The notes under the pieces were generated by a model, which had not been told where the DNA came from, did not search any database, and saw only the letters and a list, made by a program, of their open reading frames with translations. Of a stretch of DNA of 23,077 nucleotides, positions 8,502 to 19,061 are shown piece after piece. Position 1 is the stretch's first letter. The number at the start of each line of letters is the position of its first letter. The position numbers and the translations under genes are program-made. Source of the stretch: a virus; the IMG/VR virus record IMGVR_UViG_3300017732_000074, positions 1 to 23,077 of that record, one strand, 5' to 3'.

Positions 8502-9949
8502 TCTAATACCTTCTCCCCTAATGTTATGTTTGCTAATTTATTTTTATTAACTAAAGTTTTAACTATATGCACATCAACTGTATTCGGACAAACTAAATCT
8601 ACATACAACACGGGATTATGTTGTCCAACTCTGTGTGCCCTATCTTCTGATTGAACACGGGACTCCAAATTAAAATCGTTGGAATAGTAAATTACATTTG
8701 TCGCGGCATGAAGAGTTATTCCCATACCACCCGTTTGTGCATTACTGACAAAGAACCTCGTGGGATCTGCCGAGTTCTGAAACCTCGCAATCGCCTCGTC
8801 TCTTTGTGCCATAGTCGTATCGCCAAAATAAGATACTGTAGACTCTTGTCCATACGCACCTTTTAAACTACTGCAAATTTTCATGATGTCATGACGGAAC
8901 CTAGACCATATAATAATTTTACCTTCCATCTCTTCTATTACTTCAAGTAATGTCGATAACCTATTGTTTGGTATATGTTTTACTTCTCCATCATCAGTAA
9001 CAAGATAACCACAAAGCAACTGCTGGAGTCGCAAAAGCCGTGTCATAACTTCGGGTGCAGTAACCATGTTACCATCTTCAAGCAGCGCCACCGAACTTTT
9101 CTTCAGACTTTGATAATGTCTCTCTTGTTCCATTGTCATGTCAACTTGCCGTGTAACATATGTTTTGGGTGGTAGATCAAGTGCTTCTTCTTTAGTTACC
9201 CGATACGAATGTGGATCAATTTTTTTCTTCAACTCTTCTAGGTTCTTGTACCCCACGACTTGATTGAAAGAATGTGATCCCATCTTCATTGATTTGATAA
9301 CTGCATATCGTCCTTGAAAAGACCAATAAGAATCAAACCCCAAAATTTTTTTACTCATAAATAAACACTGTGAGTATAAATCTAATGGAGATTTTGTTAT
9401 CGGAGCACCCGTAAGTATTCTTTTATACTTCGCTCCTTCGGCAAATTTTATCAAAGCCTTGGTTCTCTTGGCTTTGATATTCTTAATTGTTGTTGATTCA
9501 TCAACGGCTATTAGATAATTACTTCTCCAGGTAAATGTATCAAGAAACTTGAATATCTTTTTGGTAGCAAAAGCCTCTACATTGATTAGTAGTATTCGTA
9601 ACTTCTCTCTCGCATCATGGCCCACGGAGTTTTTTAATTCTGTGGTTTCTTTTTTATTAAGATTAGATTTCCAAGTATATACTTTATGAGATACATCATC
9701 TGTTAAATGTGTTGGTATCTCATTGTTCCTCCAATTAGTGTAGACACCTTTCGGTGCTACAATAATTGCAGTATCTATTTTGTTGTGCCAATACAACCAA
9801 GCCATGTTATCAATGAGGACTTTTGATTTGCCACACCCCATCTCCATGAAGTATGCAAAGTTTTCTTTGTTATAGCTTAGTTGTAAGGCTTTCAACTGAT
9901 GATCGTAAGGATCAGTTTTTAAAAGAAAGTTAGTTTTATCTATTTCCAT
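8486..9949 (-). CDS. SNF2-type superfamily 2 helicase/ATPase
   Basis: A 487-residue translocase. The N-terminal RecA lobe shows YDHQLKAL (Q-motif-like), Walker A MEMGCGKSK (about 36-44), APKGVYTNW (Ia), the Walker B box VDEST and motif III LTGAPITKSPLDL. The C-terminal lobe shows IIWSRFRHDI, GGMGITLHAATNVIYYS (V) and QSEDRAHRVGQ (VI), the last being typical of SNF2 proteins. There are no chromatin-reader or HARP extensions, so this is the short phage form. Such proteins occur in many marine phages; their job (fork regression, removal of host proteins, annealing) is not settled. AAGG lies upstream of the ATG and the gene overlaps the ParB-like gene by 14 bases. Confidence 0.93.
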   Translation of the reverse strand: MEIDKTNFLLKTDPYDHQLKALQLSYNKENFAYFMEMGCGKSKVLIDNMAWLYWHNKIDTAIIVAPKGVYTNWRNNEIPTHLTDDVSHKVYTWKSNLNKKETTELKNSVGHDAREKLRILLINVEAFATKKIFKFLDTFTWRSNYLIAVDESTTIKNIKAKRTKALIKFAEGAKYKRILTGAPITKSPLDLYSQCLFMSKKILGFDSYWSFQGRYAVIKSMKMGSHSFNQVVGYKNLEELKKKIDPHSYRVTKEEALDLPPKTYVTRQVDMTMEQERHYQSLKKSSVALLEDGNMVTAPEVMTRLLRLQQLLCGYLVTDDGEVKHIPNNRLSTLLEVIEEMEGKIIIWSRFRHDIMKICSSLKGAYGQESTVSYFGDTTMAQRDEAIARFQNSADPTRFFVSNAQTGGMGITLHAATNVIYYSNDFNLESRVQSEDRAHRVGQHNPVLYVDLVCPNTVDVHIVKTLVNKNKLANITLGEKVLEWLKV

Positions 9950-10697
9950 ATACTTGCAACCTTATCTTTTTACCTGCCGAAGTATTATGATTATACAACC
10001 TTTCGATATTCAAAATGAAATCATTACGGCTGCCTTGATTTTTTAGTTTTGATGAATGACTCTCCAACCTTGATAAGAATACTTTCCAAACAAAGGTAGA
10101 GTCCTTCAATGCAGATATTATAGCACCAACAAAAGATCTTTTTTTATAGTATGGAAAATATTCTCCGATCTGTTGGATCTTATCTGCCGTATCTTTTGCC
10201 CACTCTAAGTCAGTAACTTTAAAGTTTCCGTCCTTAAAATCTGCTAGATCTTCTGAAGAGTGCCACCCTTTACCATTCAACATGGATATGGAATCCGAAA
10301 TTGAAAACTCATACTTCTCATGAAACCACTTTAATACTTCATAGTCTTTATTACCAAGGGTTACATGACTATCAAGAAACTCTTGCATAGTCCATGCTCT
10401 CGCAGTAGAGTTCATCTTCCTTATATCCTGGATCACTAAACCTTCTTTTATCATGTAAGTTATTGGCATACCCAAAGACTTATAGGCTTCAAGTCTGTGT
10501 TGACCTTCGCATACTTCCATCTTCTCATTGACTATTATCGGTATCTGAAAATCTTTTTTAGCTATCTGATCCGATAACTTTTTTACATGAGCCTCAACAA
10601 GATCACGATTACCTTTTATATATTTAAATTTACTATAATCCGTAGTCGAGTGGATTTTATTCTTATCTTTCTTATCGTTATCATTATCTTTAGTCAT
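9936..10697 (-). CDS. ParB/sulfiredoxin-fold protein
   Basis: A 253-residue protein. The N-terminal part has VEAHVKKLSDQIAKKDFQIP, then IIVNEKMEVCEGQHRLEAYK with the conserved G-Q-H-R at 65-68, the signature of the ParB N-terminal nucleotide-binding fold. In CTP-dependent ParB proteins this motif holds the nucleotide; in phage versions nuclease or ATPase roles are also reported. The C-terminal 150 residues are helical and unfamiliar, with no clear helix-turn-helix, so it is not an ordinary plasmid ParB. The start at 10697 follows GGGGGGAGGATA; the frame is open to 10721. It is co-encoded with the SNF2-type helicase by a 14-base overlap. Confidence 0.82.
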   Translation of the reverse strand: MTKDNDNDKKDKNKIHSTTDYSKFKYIKGNRDLVEAHVKKLSDQIAKKDFQIPIIVNEKMEVCEGQHRLEAYKSLGMPITYMIKEGLVIQDIRKMNSTARAWTMQEFLDSHVTLGNKDYEVLKWFHEKYEFSISDSISMLNGKGWHSSEDLADFKDGNFKVTDLEWAKDTADKIQQIGEYFPYYKKRSFVGAIISALKDSTFVWKVFLSRLESHSSKLKNQGSRNDFILNIERLYNHNTSAGKKIRLQVYGNR

Positions 10698-10929
10698 TAT
10701 CCTCCCCCCTATTAAATTCATGCCTCAGTTGCCAATAAGCATATTGTAATTTTCTTGCGTTTTCTGAAGTGATGTCAAACATTTCGCTATATTCAGAAAC
10801 AAATTCTGAAAGAGCCACATAAGTTTGATCTAAGGCTTTTACTTGATCTGAAGTAAGAGACTTTATTGCTTGGCTTCTCAAAGCATTTTTCTTTTCTGCC
10901 TCTATCTCCCATTGTAGTTTTTTAGACAC
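10690..10929 (-). CDS. Small helical protein, unknown
   Basis: A 79-residue, charge-rich, all-helical protein (SKKLQWEIEAEKKNALRSQA..., YVALSEFVSEYSEMFD, ARKLQYAYWQLRHEFN). I do not recognise a family. The start is GTG with a strong AGGAGG site seven bases upstream. It overlaps the RHH regulator stop by 8 bases and the ParB-like start by 8 bases, so it belongs to the same transcript. It has no cysteines and no membrane segment. Confidence 0.65.
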   Translation of the reverse strand: MSKKLQWEIEAEKKNALRSQAIKSLTSDQVKALDQTYVALSEFVSEYSEMFDITSENARKLQYAYWQLRHEFNRGEDND

Positions 10930-16040: not shown

Positions 16041-16463
16041 ATGACAGAAAAAAACTTTTTTTTAAGTATCAAAAACCAACTCCCAAAAGGTTCATTTATT
16101 CAAAAAATAGAAAATAAGTTTAATAGTGGTTTCCCCGATCTAATAATTATTAATGAAAAACTACCTTTATTTATTGAACTAAAAGCACCATCAAAAGGAA
16201 ACACTTTTAAGGTTGAACCTTCACAAATTTCAACACATTTGAGGATTTCTGCCAATAATTACGTTTCTTTTTTCTTGGTTCAAGCACCCTCTAAGTCGGT
16301 TATATATTTGTTTGAGGGTGGAACATTGTGCAAGGCACTTGCTTTGCAAGTGCCTTGCTCCCCCCTTCTGTCCCACGAGACCGAGGGGTTTTTGATTTAT
16401 GGATCATTGGAGGATTGCCTTGGTTCTGCAAATCGAAAAGTGGCATCTTTTTTGCAGAAGTAA
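16041..16463 (+). CDS. Small PD-(D/E)XK (VRR-NUC-like) nuclease with altered C-terminus
   Basis: A 140-residue protein. SGFPDLIIINEKLPLFIELK holds P32-D33 and E46-L-K48, the PD...E-x-K metal site, and a glutamine (SQISTHLRI) follows, as in VRR-NUC enzymes, which act on branched DNA. The N-terminal 95 residues look complete. After IYLFEGG the reading frame passes through a perfect 13-bp hairpin (residues about 97-106, CKALALQVPC), and its stop codon TAA lies in the next hairpin. The last 45 residues therefore look partly replaced by inserted palindromes. The enzyme core may still work. Only a weak ribosome-binding site (AGG) is seen. Confidence 0.75.
   Translation: MTEKNFFLSIKNQLPKGSFIQKIENKFNSGFPDLIIINEKLPLFIELKAPSKGNTFKVEPSQISTHLRISANNYVSFFLVQAPSKSVIYLFEGGTLCKALALQVPCSPLLSHETEGFLIYGSLEDCLGSANRKVASFLQK
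16330..16358 (+). repeat. Hairpin H1 inside the nuclease gene
   Basis: GCAAGGCACTTGC (16330-16342), loop TTT, GCAAGTGCCTTGC (16346-16358): a perfect 13-bp stem. It is in frame and coding, and runs of pyrimidines follow (CTCCCCCCTTCTG). It lacks the AACGAAGTG bulge of H2, H3 and H5 but shares the inner GC-TTT-GC tip. Confidence 0.85.
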
Positions 16464-16491
16464 CGAAGTGATCGCTTTGCGAACTTCTGCA
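16453..16491 (+). repeat. Hairpin H2, structured element copy 1
   Basis: Outer stem TGCAGAAGT (16453-16461) with ACTTCTGCA (16483-16491). On the 5' side lies the constant bulge AACGAAGTGA (16462-16471), then the inner hairpin TCGC-TTT-GCGA (16472-16482), which returns directly to the outer stem. The nuclease stop codon TAA (16461-16463) lies at the junction. Confidence 0.85.
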
Positions 16492-16560
16492 CCTTTGCAA
16501 CCCCAACTGAGGAAATGTAGACGGAGGCAGAAAACTGCGACTTGAAGAAAAATCGAAATG

Positions 16561-16601
16561 TCGCAGAGGAAACGAAGTGGTCGCTTTGCGATCCTCTGCG
16601 A
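16561..16601 (+). repeat. Hairpin H3, structured element copy 2
   Basis: Outer stem TCGCAGAGGA (16561-16570) with TCCTCTGCGA (16592-16601), bulge AACGAAGTGG (16571-16580), inner hairpin TCGC-TTT-GCGA (16581-16591). It is the same plan as H2 with different outer-stem bases. Its left arm can also pair with CTGCGAC at 16535-16541, giving an alternative fold. Confidence 0.85.
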
Positions 16602-16632
16602 TTTTGATGCCGAAGGTCTGCACACGGAAAAG

Positions 16633-16660
16633 AAAAAGCCACCCGTTGGGTGGCTTTTTT
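16633..16660. terminator. Bidirectional rho-independent terminator
   Basis: GCCACCC (16638-16644) and GGGTGGC (16648-16654) with loop GTT, flanked by AAAAA on the left and TTTTTT on the right. It ends plus-strand transcripts from the nuclease gene and, through the left-hand T run on the other strand, minus-strand transcripts from the 97-residue gene that stops at 16676. Confidence 0.92.
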
Positions 16661-16675
16661 GGGGATCGGGATTCA

Positions 16676-16969
16676 TTAAACAGAAACCTTTACTTCATCT
16701 AAATTGTAAAACCCTATCATCTCCGAAGGTCTGAAATATGGCTTGTACTCGTCTACGAAACTGACCTCTGTTTTTTTCTCTTTCAAAAGTTTAATTAGTT
16801 TTGGAAGATCACAATCCTCCTCAAGATAAACACAACAATTATCTGAATTATAAAAACTATAAGGCGAGAAACTATTAAGACCTATTCCAAATCCTTTTAA
16901 ATCGTAAAGTGAAATCTTGCCATAACCATGACTTGAATTATCTATAAATGGTATTTTAATCTTTAACAT
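16676..16969 (-). CDS. Hypothetical protein, 97 residues
   Basis: Reads MLKIKIPFIDNSSHGYGKIS, LYDLKGFGIGLNSFSPYSFY, NSDNCCVYLEEDCDLPKLIK and so on. The start is strand-rich, with CCVYLEEDCDLPKLIKLLKE in the middle and a C-terminus containing YKPYFRPSEMIGFYNLDEV. I know no family. GGAAGG precedes the ATG. It overlaps the preceding small gene by 14 bases and runs to the bidirectional terminator, so the two form a short two-gene operon behind a good promoter. Confidence 0.65.
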   Translation of the reverse strand: MLKIKIPFIDNSSHGYGKISLYDLKGFGIGLNSFSPYSFYNSDNCCVYLEEDCDLPKLIKLLKEKKTEVSFVDEYKPYFRPSEMIGFYNLDEVKVSV

Positions 16970-17138
16970 TTAAGTTTCCTTCCATTTTCTCTATTGCTTT
17001 TTCTAGCTCATTTTCTAATTTAGTTAGTTCAAACATTGCTTTCTTATATCCAAGTAACTCTCCTCTTCGATAAGCTAACTCTAAATGATCTGTTAATTTC
17101 TCAAATGGTGAGTTTGGTTCTATTATTTTCTGTCCCAT
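16956..17138 (-). CDS. Small coiled-coil protein, 60 residues
   Basis: Reads MGQKIIEPNSPFEKLTDHLE, LAYRRGELLGYKKAMFELTK, LENELEKAIEKMEGNLNVKD. The C-terminal half is a strong leucine/glutamate coiled coil. I do not recognise a family. The open frame reaches 17273, but AAGGA before the ATG at 17138 and the promoter whose -10 is at 17174-17169 rule out the longer starts. The predicted leader is about 25 bases. It is the first gene of a two-gene operon. Confidence 0.65.
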   Translation of the reverse strand: MGQKIIEPNSPFEKLTDHLELAYRRGELLGYKKAMFELTKLENELEKAIEKMEGNLNVKD

Positions 17139-17168
17139 TTTATTTCCTTTCATTAAATGTACCTTTCT

Positions 17169-17197
17169 ATTGTATCCCAGATTTTCCCACATGTCAA
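17169..17197 (-). promoter_or_regulatory. Near-consensus sigma70 promoter for the two-gene operon
   Basis: On the minus strand TTGACA (17197-17192), a 17-base spacer and TACAAT (17174-17169): a perfect -35, optimal spacing and a five-of-six -10. It is the clearest promoter in the window. It should be read by the host enzyme early in infection or in a lysogen. Confidence 0.85.
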
Positions 17198-17242
17198 ATA
17201 ATACATGACACATGATTGTTTCTTCAACTCGAAAAATGCCAT

Positions 17243-17310
17243 CTAAAACAATTCGCAGAACGCAACAGATCAACAGACAAAAACAGTTTGCGTTCTGCGA
17301 ATTGTTTTAG
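17243..17310 (+). repeat. Hairpin H4, perfect 23-bp inverted repeat
   Basis: Arms 17243-17265 (beginning CTAAAACAATTCGCAG) and 17288-17310 (ending CTGCGAATTGTTTTAG) are exact reverse complements over 23 bases, with a 22-base loop rich in CA. The arm part TTCGCAGA resembles the arms of H2 and H3, but the AACGAAGTG bulge and inner hairpin are absent. Confidence 0.9.
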
Positions 17311-17359
17311 GCAACGAACTCCAAACCATGCACCAGGCCTCGTTGATCGGGCAACTGCA

Positions 17360-17450
17360 CCCCAAAAAAAGGGATTTGAAAAAACATCATGCTATGCAAT
17401 GAAACGAAGTGTTCCCGAAGGGATCATTGCGAAGCATGATGTTTTTGGGG
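17360..17450 (+). repeat. Hairpin H5, structured element copy 3 (large form)
   Basis: Outer stem AAAAACATCATGCT (17380-17393) with AGCATGATGTTTTT (17433-17446); after one mismatch and one wobble pair, GCAATGA (17396-17402) pairs with TCATTGC (17424-17430). The bulge AACGAAGTGT (17403-17412) and inner hairpin TCCC-GAA-GGGA (17413-17423) match the plan of H2 and H3, with G-C switched to C-G in the inner stem. CCCCAAAAA (17360-17368) can also pair with TTTTTGGGG (17442-17450). Confidence 0.9.
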
Positions 17451-17582
17451 TTACTAGAGCCAAAAGCCACACAACTAGCAAAAGCAAAGAGGGGGGAGGG
17501 GGTAAAATGACGGGTACATACACACATACACACATATATATGCAGGGTTGATAAATTCATTCGGATATATTATCGTTTGGGC

Positions 17583-19061
17583 ATGAACCTAGATGCTTTA
17601 CCCAAAGAGGTGTTACATGAGGTATTTCTGCTTGAGCAACAGAAAAACAAACTAGACACCCGTGATATAGCTCAAAAAAATTTCTTAGCGTATGCCCAAC
17701 ATGTATATGAAAATTTTATCGTTGGACGACATCACAAAATCATTGCAGAAAAATTGGAGCTAATCGCTGAAGGCAAACTAAAAAGACTTATCGTAAACAT
17801 GCCACCTAGACACTCGAAGTCAGAGATGGCATCTTATCTCATGCCCTCGTGGTTCTTGGGCCGTAACCCAAAGTTAAAGATTATTCAAGCTACGATGAAT
17901 ACAGAACTTGCCGTGAGGTTTGGTCGTAAGGTTAGGGACTTGATTGCCGATCCAATATACACGGAGGTTTTTCCAGAGACTGATCTGAAGCAAGACAGTC
18001 AAGCCGCGGGTCGGTGGGAGACAAGCGCTGGTGGTGAATACTTTGCAGCAGGCGTTGGAGCAGCGATGACGGGTCGTGGTGCAGACTTGTTGATTATTGA
18101 CGATCCACACTCGGAACAAGATGCACTGTCCACGACTGCTTACGATAATACATACGAGTGGTACACATCGGGTCCGAGGCAGAGATTACAGCCTGGGGGA
18201 ACCATCATCATTGTGCAGACGAGATGGTCAAAGAAGGATTTGACAGGCAGATTATTACAAGCACAGGCAAAGGACAGTATGTCAGATCAATGGGATATCG
18301 TGGAGTTTCCAGCGATATTACCGAATGATAAATTGTTGTGGCCCGAGTTCTGGAACAAGGACGAGTTGTTAAAAGTCAAGGCATCATTGTCGCCTATGAA
18401 ATGGAACGCACAGTGGCAGCAGAATCCTACATCTGAAGAAACTGCGATGATAAAAAGAGAGTGGTGGACTCCGTGGGAAGAACAAGATGTGCCGAAGTTA
18501 GATTATATAATTCAAAGTTATGATACGGCATACTCTAAAAAAGAGACAGCAGACTACAGTGCGATTACGACATGGGGTGTTTTTGAGCCAAAGAAGAACG
18601 GCATACAACATTTGATAATGTTAGATGCGAAGAAAGGTCGTTGGAGTTTTCCAGAGTTGAAGGACATAGCGATAGAAGAGAATGAATACTGGGAACCCGA
18701 CATGATGTTGATCGAGGCAAAAGCAAGTGGACAACCCTTGGCAGATGAATTAAGGTTACTTAACCTTCCAGTTTTGACATTTAGTCCTGGCAGACGTAAG
18801 GGGGGTAACTTGGATAAAACCACAAGGATGCACATTGTATCCCCTATTTTCGAATCTGGAAAAGTGTGGTATCCTAGTGGAGAGAAGTTTGCAGAGGATG
18901 TAATAGAAGAGGTTGCATCTTTTCCAAATGGAGACCATGATGACTATTGTGATAGTATGACGATGGCAATCATGCGATTTAGACAAGGTGGTTTTATATC
19001 ACTGGATGGAGAGGACGAAGGCGAGGATTGGTATCCAAGAAACAAGAAGGAATACTACTAA
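17583..19061 (+). CDS. terL: Terminase large subunit
   Basis: The DNA-packaging motor and nuclease, 492 residues. The ATPase domain shows a variant Walker A, PPRHSKSE (74-81), Walker B LLIIDDP (169-175) and a coupling motif, VQTRWSKKDL (211-220). The RuvC-like nuclease shows the first acid in QSYDTAYSKKETADYSAI, a central IEAKASG and the last pair in FPNGDHDDYCDSMTMAI. The domain order and length match the Terminase_6 group. A TTG two codons upstream is possible, but I chose the ATG at 17583; no clear Shine-Dalgarno site exists for either. The stop overlaps the next ATG as TAATG. The non-coding hairpin region lies directly upstream. Confidence 0.96.
   Translation: MNLDALPKEVLHEVFLLEQQKNKLDTRDIAQKNFLAYAQHVYENFIVGRHHKIIAEKLELIAEGKLKRLIVNMPPRHSKSEMASYLMPSWFLGRNPKLKIIQATMNTELAVRFGRKVRDLIADPIYTEVFPETDLKQDSQAAGRWETSAGGEYFAAGVGAAMTGRGADLLIIDDPHSEQDALSTTAYDNTYEWYTSGPRQRLQPGGTIIIVQTRWSKKDLTGRLLQAQAKDSMSDQWDIVEFPAILPNDKLLWPEFWNKDELLKVKASLSPMKWNAQWQQNPTSEETAMIKREWWTPWEEQDVPKLDYIIQSYDTAYSKKETADYSAITTWGVFEPKKNGIQHLIMLDAKKGRWSFPELKDIAIEENEYWEPDMMLIEAKASGQPLADELRLLNLPVLTFSPGRRKGGNLDKTTRMHIVSPIFESGKVWYPSGEKFAEDVIEEVASFPNGDHDDYCDSMTMAIMRFRQGGFISLDGEDEGEDWYPRNKKEYY

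Follow-up and report, generated by a model that had tools for sequence, protein, structure and literature searches.

Three short hairpins lie upstream of the terminase large subunit gene (TerL) in a 23-kb IMG/VR phage contig (23,077 nt, the whole of which is called the window here), and they raise the question of what kind of element this is and what it may do for the phage that carries it. The TerL of the window has 59% identity to that of Pelagibacter phage HTVC027P and 53% to that of HTVC023P, and the carriers of the element appear, by sequence comparison, to be uncultivated marine phages distantly related to the pelagiphages HTVC027P/023P (SAR11 phages). A similarity search of cultured phages returned nothing relevant resembling the window region, and two published descriptions of HTVC023P/027P-type phages mention no intergenic elements, terminators, or promoters, nor hairpins where these were looked for. 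Elsewhere in the window, a ParB-like protein is encoded in a cluster of minus-strand genes (9936-10721; PHROG match, E=7e-35), and related phages carry a tRNA-Cys gene (3085-3158 in L007; also in L009, L010, L011, and L012).

A hairpin family between the terminase genes

A preliminary description of the window recognized three elements sharing one plan, and these are real: they form one family in which structure is constant while sequence varies. Within the window the motif AACGAAGTG has exact matches at 16462-16470, 16571-16579, and 17403-17411 only, and the window hairpins fold well below shuffled sequence under both DNA and RNA parameters (z about -4, -4.5, and -8.5). The extents first given for copies 1 and 2 were accurate, but copy 3, placed at 17396-17430, proves to be a larger palindrome (17380-17446) with outer arms of 23 nt each (17380-17402/17424-17446) that are 91% complementary. 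Read from the alignments, each element is a three-way junction made up of an outer stem (P1), an A, a mini-hairpin (P2, A-C-GNA-G-T), GG, an inner hairpin (P3, TCGC-loop-GCGA), and a return to P1 without a linker. The features of the region are as follows.

16041-16463, plus strand: gene for a 140-aa PD-(D/E)XK nuclease, VRR-Nuc/Hjc-like, with its last codons and stop within P1 and the tip of copy 1
16453-16491, plus strand: copy 1, whole three-way-junction palindrome (covariance-model match, 60.5 bits), with P1 at 16453-16461/16483-16491, A at 16462, P2 mini-hairpin ACGAAGT at 16463-16469, GA at 16470-16471, and P3 (TCGC-TTT-GCGA) at 16472-16482, then CCTTTGC
16561-16601, plus strand: copy 2 (covariance-model match, 68.8 bits), with P1 at 16561-16570/16592-16601, A at 16571, P2 at 16572-16578, GG at 16579-16580, and P3 at 16581-16591; TTTT directly after
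16633-16659, no strand assigned: ordinary bidirectional terminator, not a family member, downstream of copies 1 and 2, with a 12-bp stem, GTT loop, and A/T tracts
17243-17310, plus strand: long-loop palindrome with a 23-bp perfect stem ending in CGCAA/TTGCG and a 22-nt loop, resembling the type C members described below
17380-17446, plus strand: copy 3 (covariance-model match, 44.5 bits), with P1 at 17380-17402/17424-17446 (23-nt arms, two mismatches, A-tract at the 5' end, T-tract at the 3' end), A at 17403, P2 at 17404-17410, GT at 17411-17412, and P3 (TCCC-GAA-GGGA) at 17413-17423
17577-19061, plus strand: terminase large subunit, the anchor for the region and for element orientation

Relatives came from 2.9 million viral contigs searched with the pattern and from a terminase search. 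A covariance model of the family finds 101 copies (53 distinct) across 91 sources, their scores standing far above background, and all 101 belong to one phage group. In the long records examined, every copy lies upstream of TerL, between TerS and TerL, among small genes for which ORFs were called mechanically. Several copies per genome lie between the terminase genes and, in records that include TerL, 39 of 39 are on the TerL strand, although counts of copies, orientations, and stop codons are not counts of independent events because the copies are related by descent and duplication. The family is not at chance level: the full three-way-junction plan, searched without a seed, matched 55 places in the window plus relatives, about 51 of them family members, versus one in 3.85 Mb of reversed/complemented control sequence.

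Apart from a single tip in a Prevotellaceae MAG, copies were found only in this one phage group. Rfam gave no match in the window and otherwise only low-scoring, chance-type ones (E up to 5), and with no score above a gathering cut-off the family is not one described there. The element is absent from cultured phages and plasmids and from the isolated or complete relatives HTVC027P, HTVC023P, DSL-LC04, and 023Pt_psg01; 385 alphaproteobacterial genomes gave no match in a search run without a positive control. In bacterial genomes the tip pattern has 28 matches, which is near chance, and the flanking stem accompanies none of them but that in the Prevotellaceae MAG. There (contig L226, around 1060-1148) the identical 20-nt tip AACGAAGTGGTCGCTTGCGA occurs once in this unrelated bacterium, capping a palindrome whose arms are ~36 nt long. 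No wider family emerged when Bacteroidales/Bacteroidota were searched with the model and the pattern, and this MAG stands alone among the Bacteroidota sampled.

The second mini-hairpin and what its covariation means

The segment AACGAAGTG(N) had been described as a constant bulge, but double changes in relatives reveal that it is base paired. Relatives alternate AACGAAGTGG with AACGGAGTGG and AATGAAATGG, a C and a G four positions apart, on either side of a GNA loop, being replaced jointly by T and A. This paired change, present in 15 of the 53 distinct copies, therefore identifies a second mini-hairpin (A-C-GNA-G-T) and not a bulge. Extended P2 helices occur in some copies (ACGAA-ACGAAGT-GAAGT; ATGAA-ACGAAGT-GGAAT), and an enlarged P2, ACTCC..GGAGT, is seen in L170, L015, and L035. 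With either RNA or DNA parameters, the lowest-energy structure predicted for L170 is the three-way junction. In ordinary copies RNA folding parameters alone favor another tip fold (CGAAGU/GCUUUG), and the case for P2 thus rests on comparison, not energy. We rejected this competing RNA fold, which shows no covariation. The inner-stem change within the window, TCGC/GCGA to TCCC/GGGA, proves little by itself, and the proof comes from the relatives. Invariant parts of the tip are the A, the GNA loop pattern, and the G at the junction. Mini-hairpins of the form C-GNA-G are very stable in DNA. Like the d(GCGAAGC)-type extra-stable GNA-loop DNA mini-hairpins, P2 has a GNA triloop on a stem of 2 bp; unlike them, its closing pair may be T-A and it exists only within the junction.

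The covariation was tested for significance in both copy sets, with shuffles in which the relatedness among copies remains. In the first alignment, of 41 copies, 99.1% of cells pair, 13 of the 16 pairs change on both sides, the covariation score is reached by 0 of 500 shuffles, and slid versions fail. The larger set behaves alike, with 98.8% of 842 cells paired, both-sided change at 13 of 16 pairs, and again 0 of 500 shuffles reaching the score.

Strong as it is, this covariation does not carry the conclusion first drawn from it, that it marks selection for structure rather than sequence. One-sided changes are very rare, the 842 cells comprising 830 Watson-Crick pairs, 2 G-U pairs, and 10 mismatches; in a small tRNA yardstick, 5 of 84 are G-U. 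Template switching can create and maintain hairpins, and hairpin-templated repair can give paired changes (PMC8794818). Since such repair can also yield double changes without intermediates, the claim that covariation proves selection on structure is too strong. The near-absence of G-U is unusual for selection on RNA alone and suggests either template-switch repair or a constraint acting on DNA or on both strands. The palindromes were probably multiplied in the region by duplication and by recombination between copies, and kept perfect partly by hairpin-templated repair.

Probable gene-end hairpins and the neighboring nuclease

This real and new structural family most likely consists of phage gene-end hairpins of a new form. 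A T-run of at least 3 follows P1 within 10 nt in 60 of 63 units (background 22%), whereas an A-run precedes it in 22 of 63, near background, and the signal is therefore directional. A 3' hairpin of terminator type is favored by the directionality of the T-tract together with the fixed orientation and the position at gene ends. Our leading reading, held tentatively, is that each element forms such a hairpin where a rightward (plus-strand) transcript ends and bears a specialized cap. On transcription of the plus strand P1 would close beside the short T-tract, the tip would fold into a three-way junction in which P2 (two base pairs under a GNA triloop) lies beside P3, and the cap would probably stabilize the transcript end or be read by a protein. 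We infer the transcription itself, RNA rather than DNA as the working form, the ending of the transcript, and the role of the cap from these features. The likeness to intrinsic (rho-independent) terminators lies in the T-run that directly follows a stable hairpin, on one strand, and in the gene-end position, here over a stop codon. Unlike those terminators, the family has a long constant three-way-junction cap and short T-tracts, often with ordinary terminators just downstream. The tracts are often 3-4 nt, 4 T being reached in 31 of 47 distinct copies, and copies 1 and 2 have an ordinary terminator 30-200 nt downstream. A consensus terminator scan does not call the three window copies, partly because its loop limit is 8. 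Some copies sit among small minus-strand genes, a setting in which rightward transcription is not evident. Also counting against the terminator reading is the scarcity of G-U (2 of 842 cells), which is unexpected if only single-stranded RNA were selected.

The gene that ends in copy 1 encodes a putative nuclease with profile matches to the 4qbo nuclease (E=2e-4) and Hjc 4tkd (E=0.041) and to a PHROG junction-resolvase family (E=7e-4), and with E24, D33, E46-x-K48, and Q62 invariant. Its stop codon falls inside a palindrome at 31 of 47 distinct loci, related as these are, versus 1 of 190 control ORFs. In the distant relatives L082, L087, L057, and L090 an unrelated palindrome (TTAACATGTTAA repeats) occupies the same stop codon, which suggests that palindromes arise there repeatedly. 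The nuclease coding sequence itself contains a perfect 13-bp palindrome with a TTT loop (window 16330-16358), and a similar one occurs in L005/L024. HTVC027P and DSL-LC04 have the nuclease gene and lack the element.

The neighboring nuclease gene gives some plausibility, though in our judgment well short of an even chance, to a DNA-level junction site, at which the palindrome would extrude, as either a hairpin or a cruciform tipped by a three-way junction, and be bound or cut by the adjacent nuclease or by another packaging, replication, or recombination protein. Pairs that are Watson-Crick only (830 versus 2 G-U) are expected of a DNA palindrome, and the stability of C-GNA-G mini-hairpins in DNA and the stop codon within a palindrome at 31 of 47 loci, some with the unrelated TTAACATGTTAA palindrome, point the same way. 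Moreover, the adjoining gene is VRR-Nuc/Hjc-like, and VRR-Nuc proteins that stand alone, among them two phage proteins, form dimers and cleave four-way junctions (PMC4103454). Such a site, however, requires neither a directional T-tract nor a fixed tip orientation, and two phages keep the nuclease without the element. A far bolder version, which we regard as very improbable, is that the palindromes would be structure-specific sites of the VRR-Nuc-like nuclease, which would recognize the three-way-junction tip at the end of its own gene and in sister copies, as a structure-guided homing or packaging-linked system spreading and reshuffling the region.

Other palindromes, known repeats, and significance

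At the site after the nuclease gene, a P1 of this kind bears a short tip, GAGTTTGCGA, in place of the junction in some relatives, and long-loop (type C) members, TCGCAA-N18-32-TTGCGA, lie nearer TerL. Long-loop palindromes in the window (17243-17310) and in L032, L036, L038, and L024 have 16-23 bp stems closed by CGCAA/TTGCG and variable loops of roughly 18-39 nt, with several per phage upstream of TerL. A TGCRANY box stands 20-26 nt before P1 in 50 of 70 units (background 8%), and the repeated unit is therefore larger than the hairpin; in copy 1 the box is part of the nuclease coding sequence. L170 contains a chimeric element with a broken P1 (1661-1701), whose 5' arm matches one, and whose 3' arm the other, of two neighboring L244 elements (12804 and 12899), and this is consistent with recombination between or within tips, or with an assembly error.

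Such features recall the PeSL promoter/stem-loop cassettes of T4-like phages (Arbiol 2010 and Comeau 2014, cited in PMC4503421), which, as far as the citing article describes them, are likewise repeated intergenic stem-loop cassettes of a variable phage region and have been proposed to aid modular shuffling. The present family differs from PeSLs so described in its conserved three-way-junction tip, its unrelated phage group, and its want of an identified early promoter: upstream lie an A-tract and the TGCRANY box with no recognizable promoter, and the promoter scan of the region is only weakly above shuffles. That the elements act mainly as cassettes for recombination and module shuffling, their tip kept mostly by conversion between copies, is unlikely. 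The several copies per genome in the small-gene region, the larger unit implied by the shared box (50 of 70), and the L170 chimera, which recombination within the tip would be expected to give, argue for it, but the chimera could be an assembly artifact, no promoter was found in the unit, and the P2 variants of different copies are set apart by paired changes and have not been homogenized.

It is more doubtful still that the palindromes are functionless by-products of replication, made and kept by template switching; this process can create and maintain hairpins (PMC8794818) and would fit the near lack of one-sided changes, but palindrome repair leaves the invariant A, GNA loop, and junction G, the fixed orientation, and the directional T-tract unexplained.

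A small mobile palindromic element of the REP/MITE or mitochondrial double-hairpin type, already weakened and the least supported of the functions first listed because copies keep to one genome region, one orientation (39/39), and one phage group, is highly improbable: a pair of small hairpins following one another at the apex of palindromes that vary, homologous sites that differ in having or lacking the three-way-junction tip, and the identical 20-nt tip on a long palindrome in the Prevotellaceae MAG fit it, but Y1 transposase is absent from the records searched, 385 Alphaproteobacteria gave no match, and sites lacking the junction tip still carry the palindrome with another tip. The proposed comparison with related phages thus yielded no clean empty site. 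The lack of a neighboring transposase reported earlier agrees with the absence of Y1_Tnp (PF01797, RAYT) from 15 related phage records, a search in which control genomes were positive. Like REP/REPIN sequences, the elements include repeated extragenic palindromes of 20-40 nt; unlike them, they lack a tetranucleotide tag and a RAYT/Y1 transposase, and REP-like scatter in both orientations is replaced by TerL orientation in 39 of 39 copies and a single region in long records. Mitochondrial double-hairpin elements share the two small hairpins in series, but those of the present family are enclosed by a third stem and show no evidence of mobility.

The elements thus represent a previously uncatalogued family of nucleic-acid structures in uncultivated marine phages related to SAR11 phages, and the covariance model makes this junction-capped family searchable. 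They also provide a test case for whether palindromes that co-vary almost without G-U reflect RNA selection, DNA function, or template-switch repair. If the neighboring junction nuclease does bind the cap, this would represent a novel mode of target selection by a phage nuclease.
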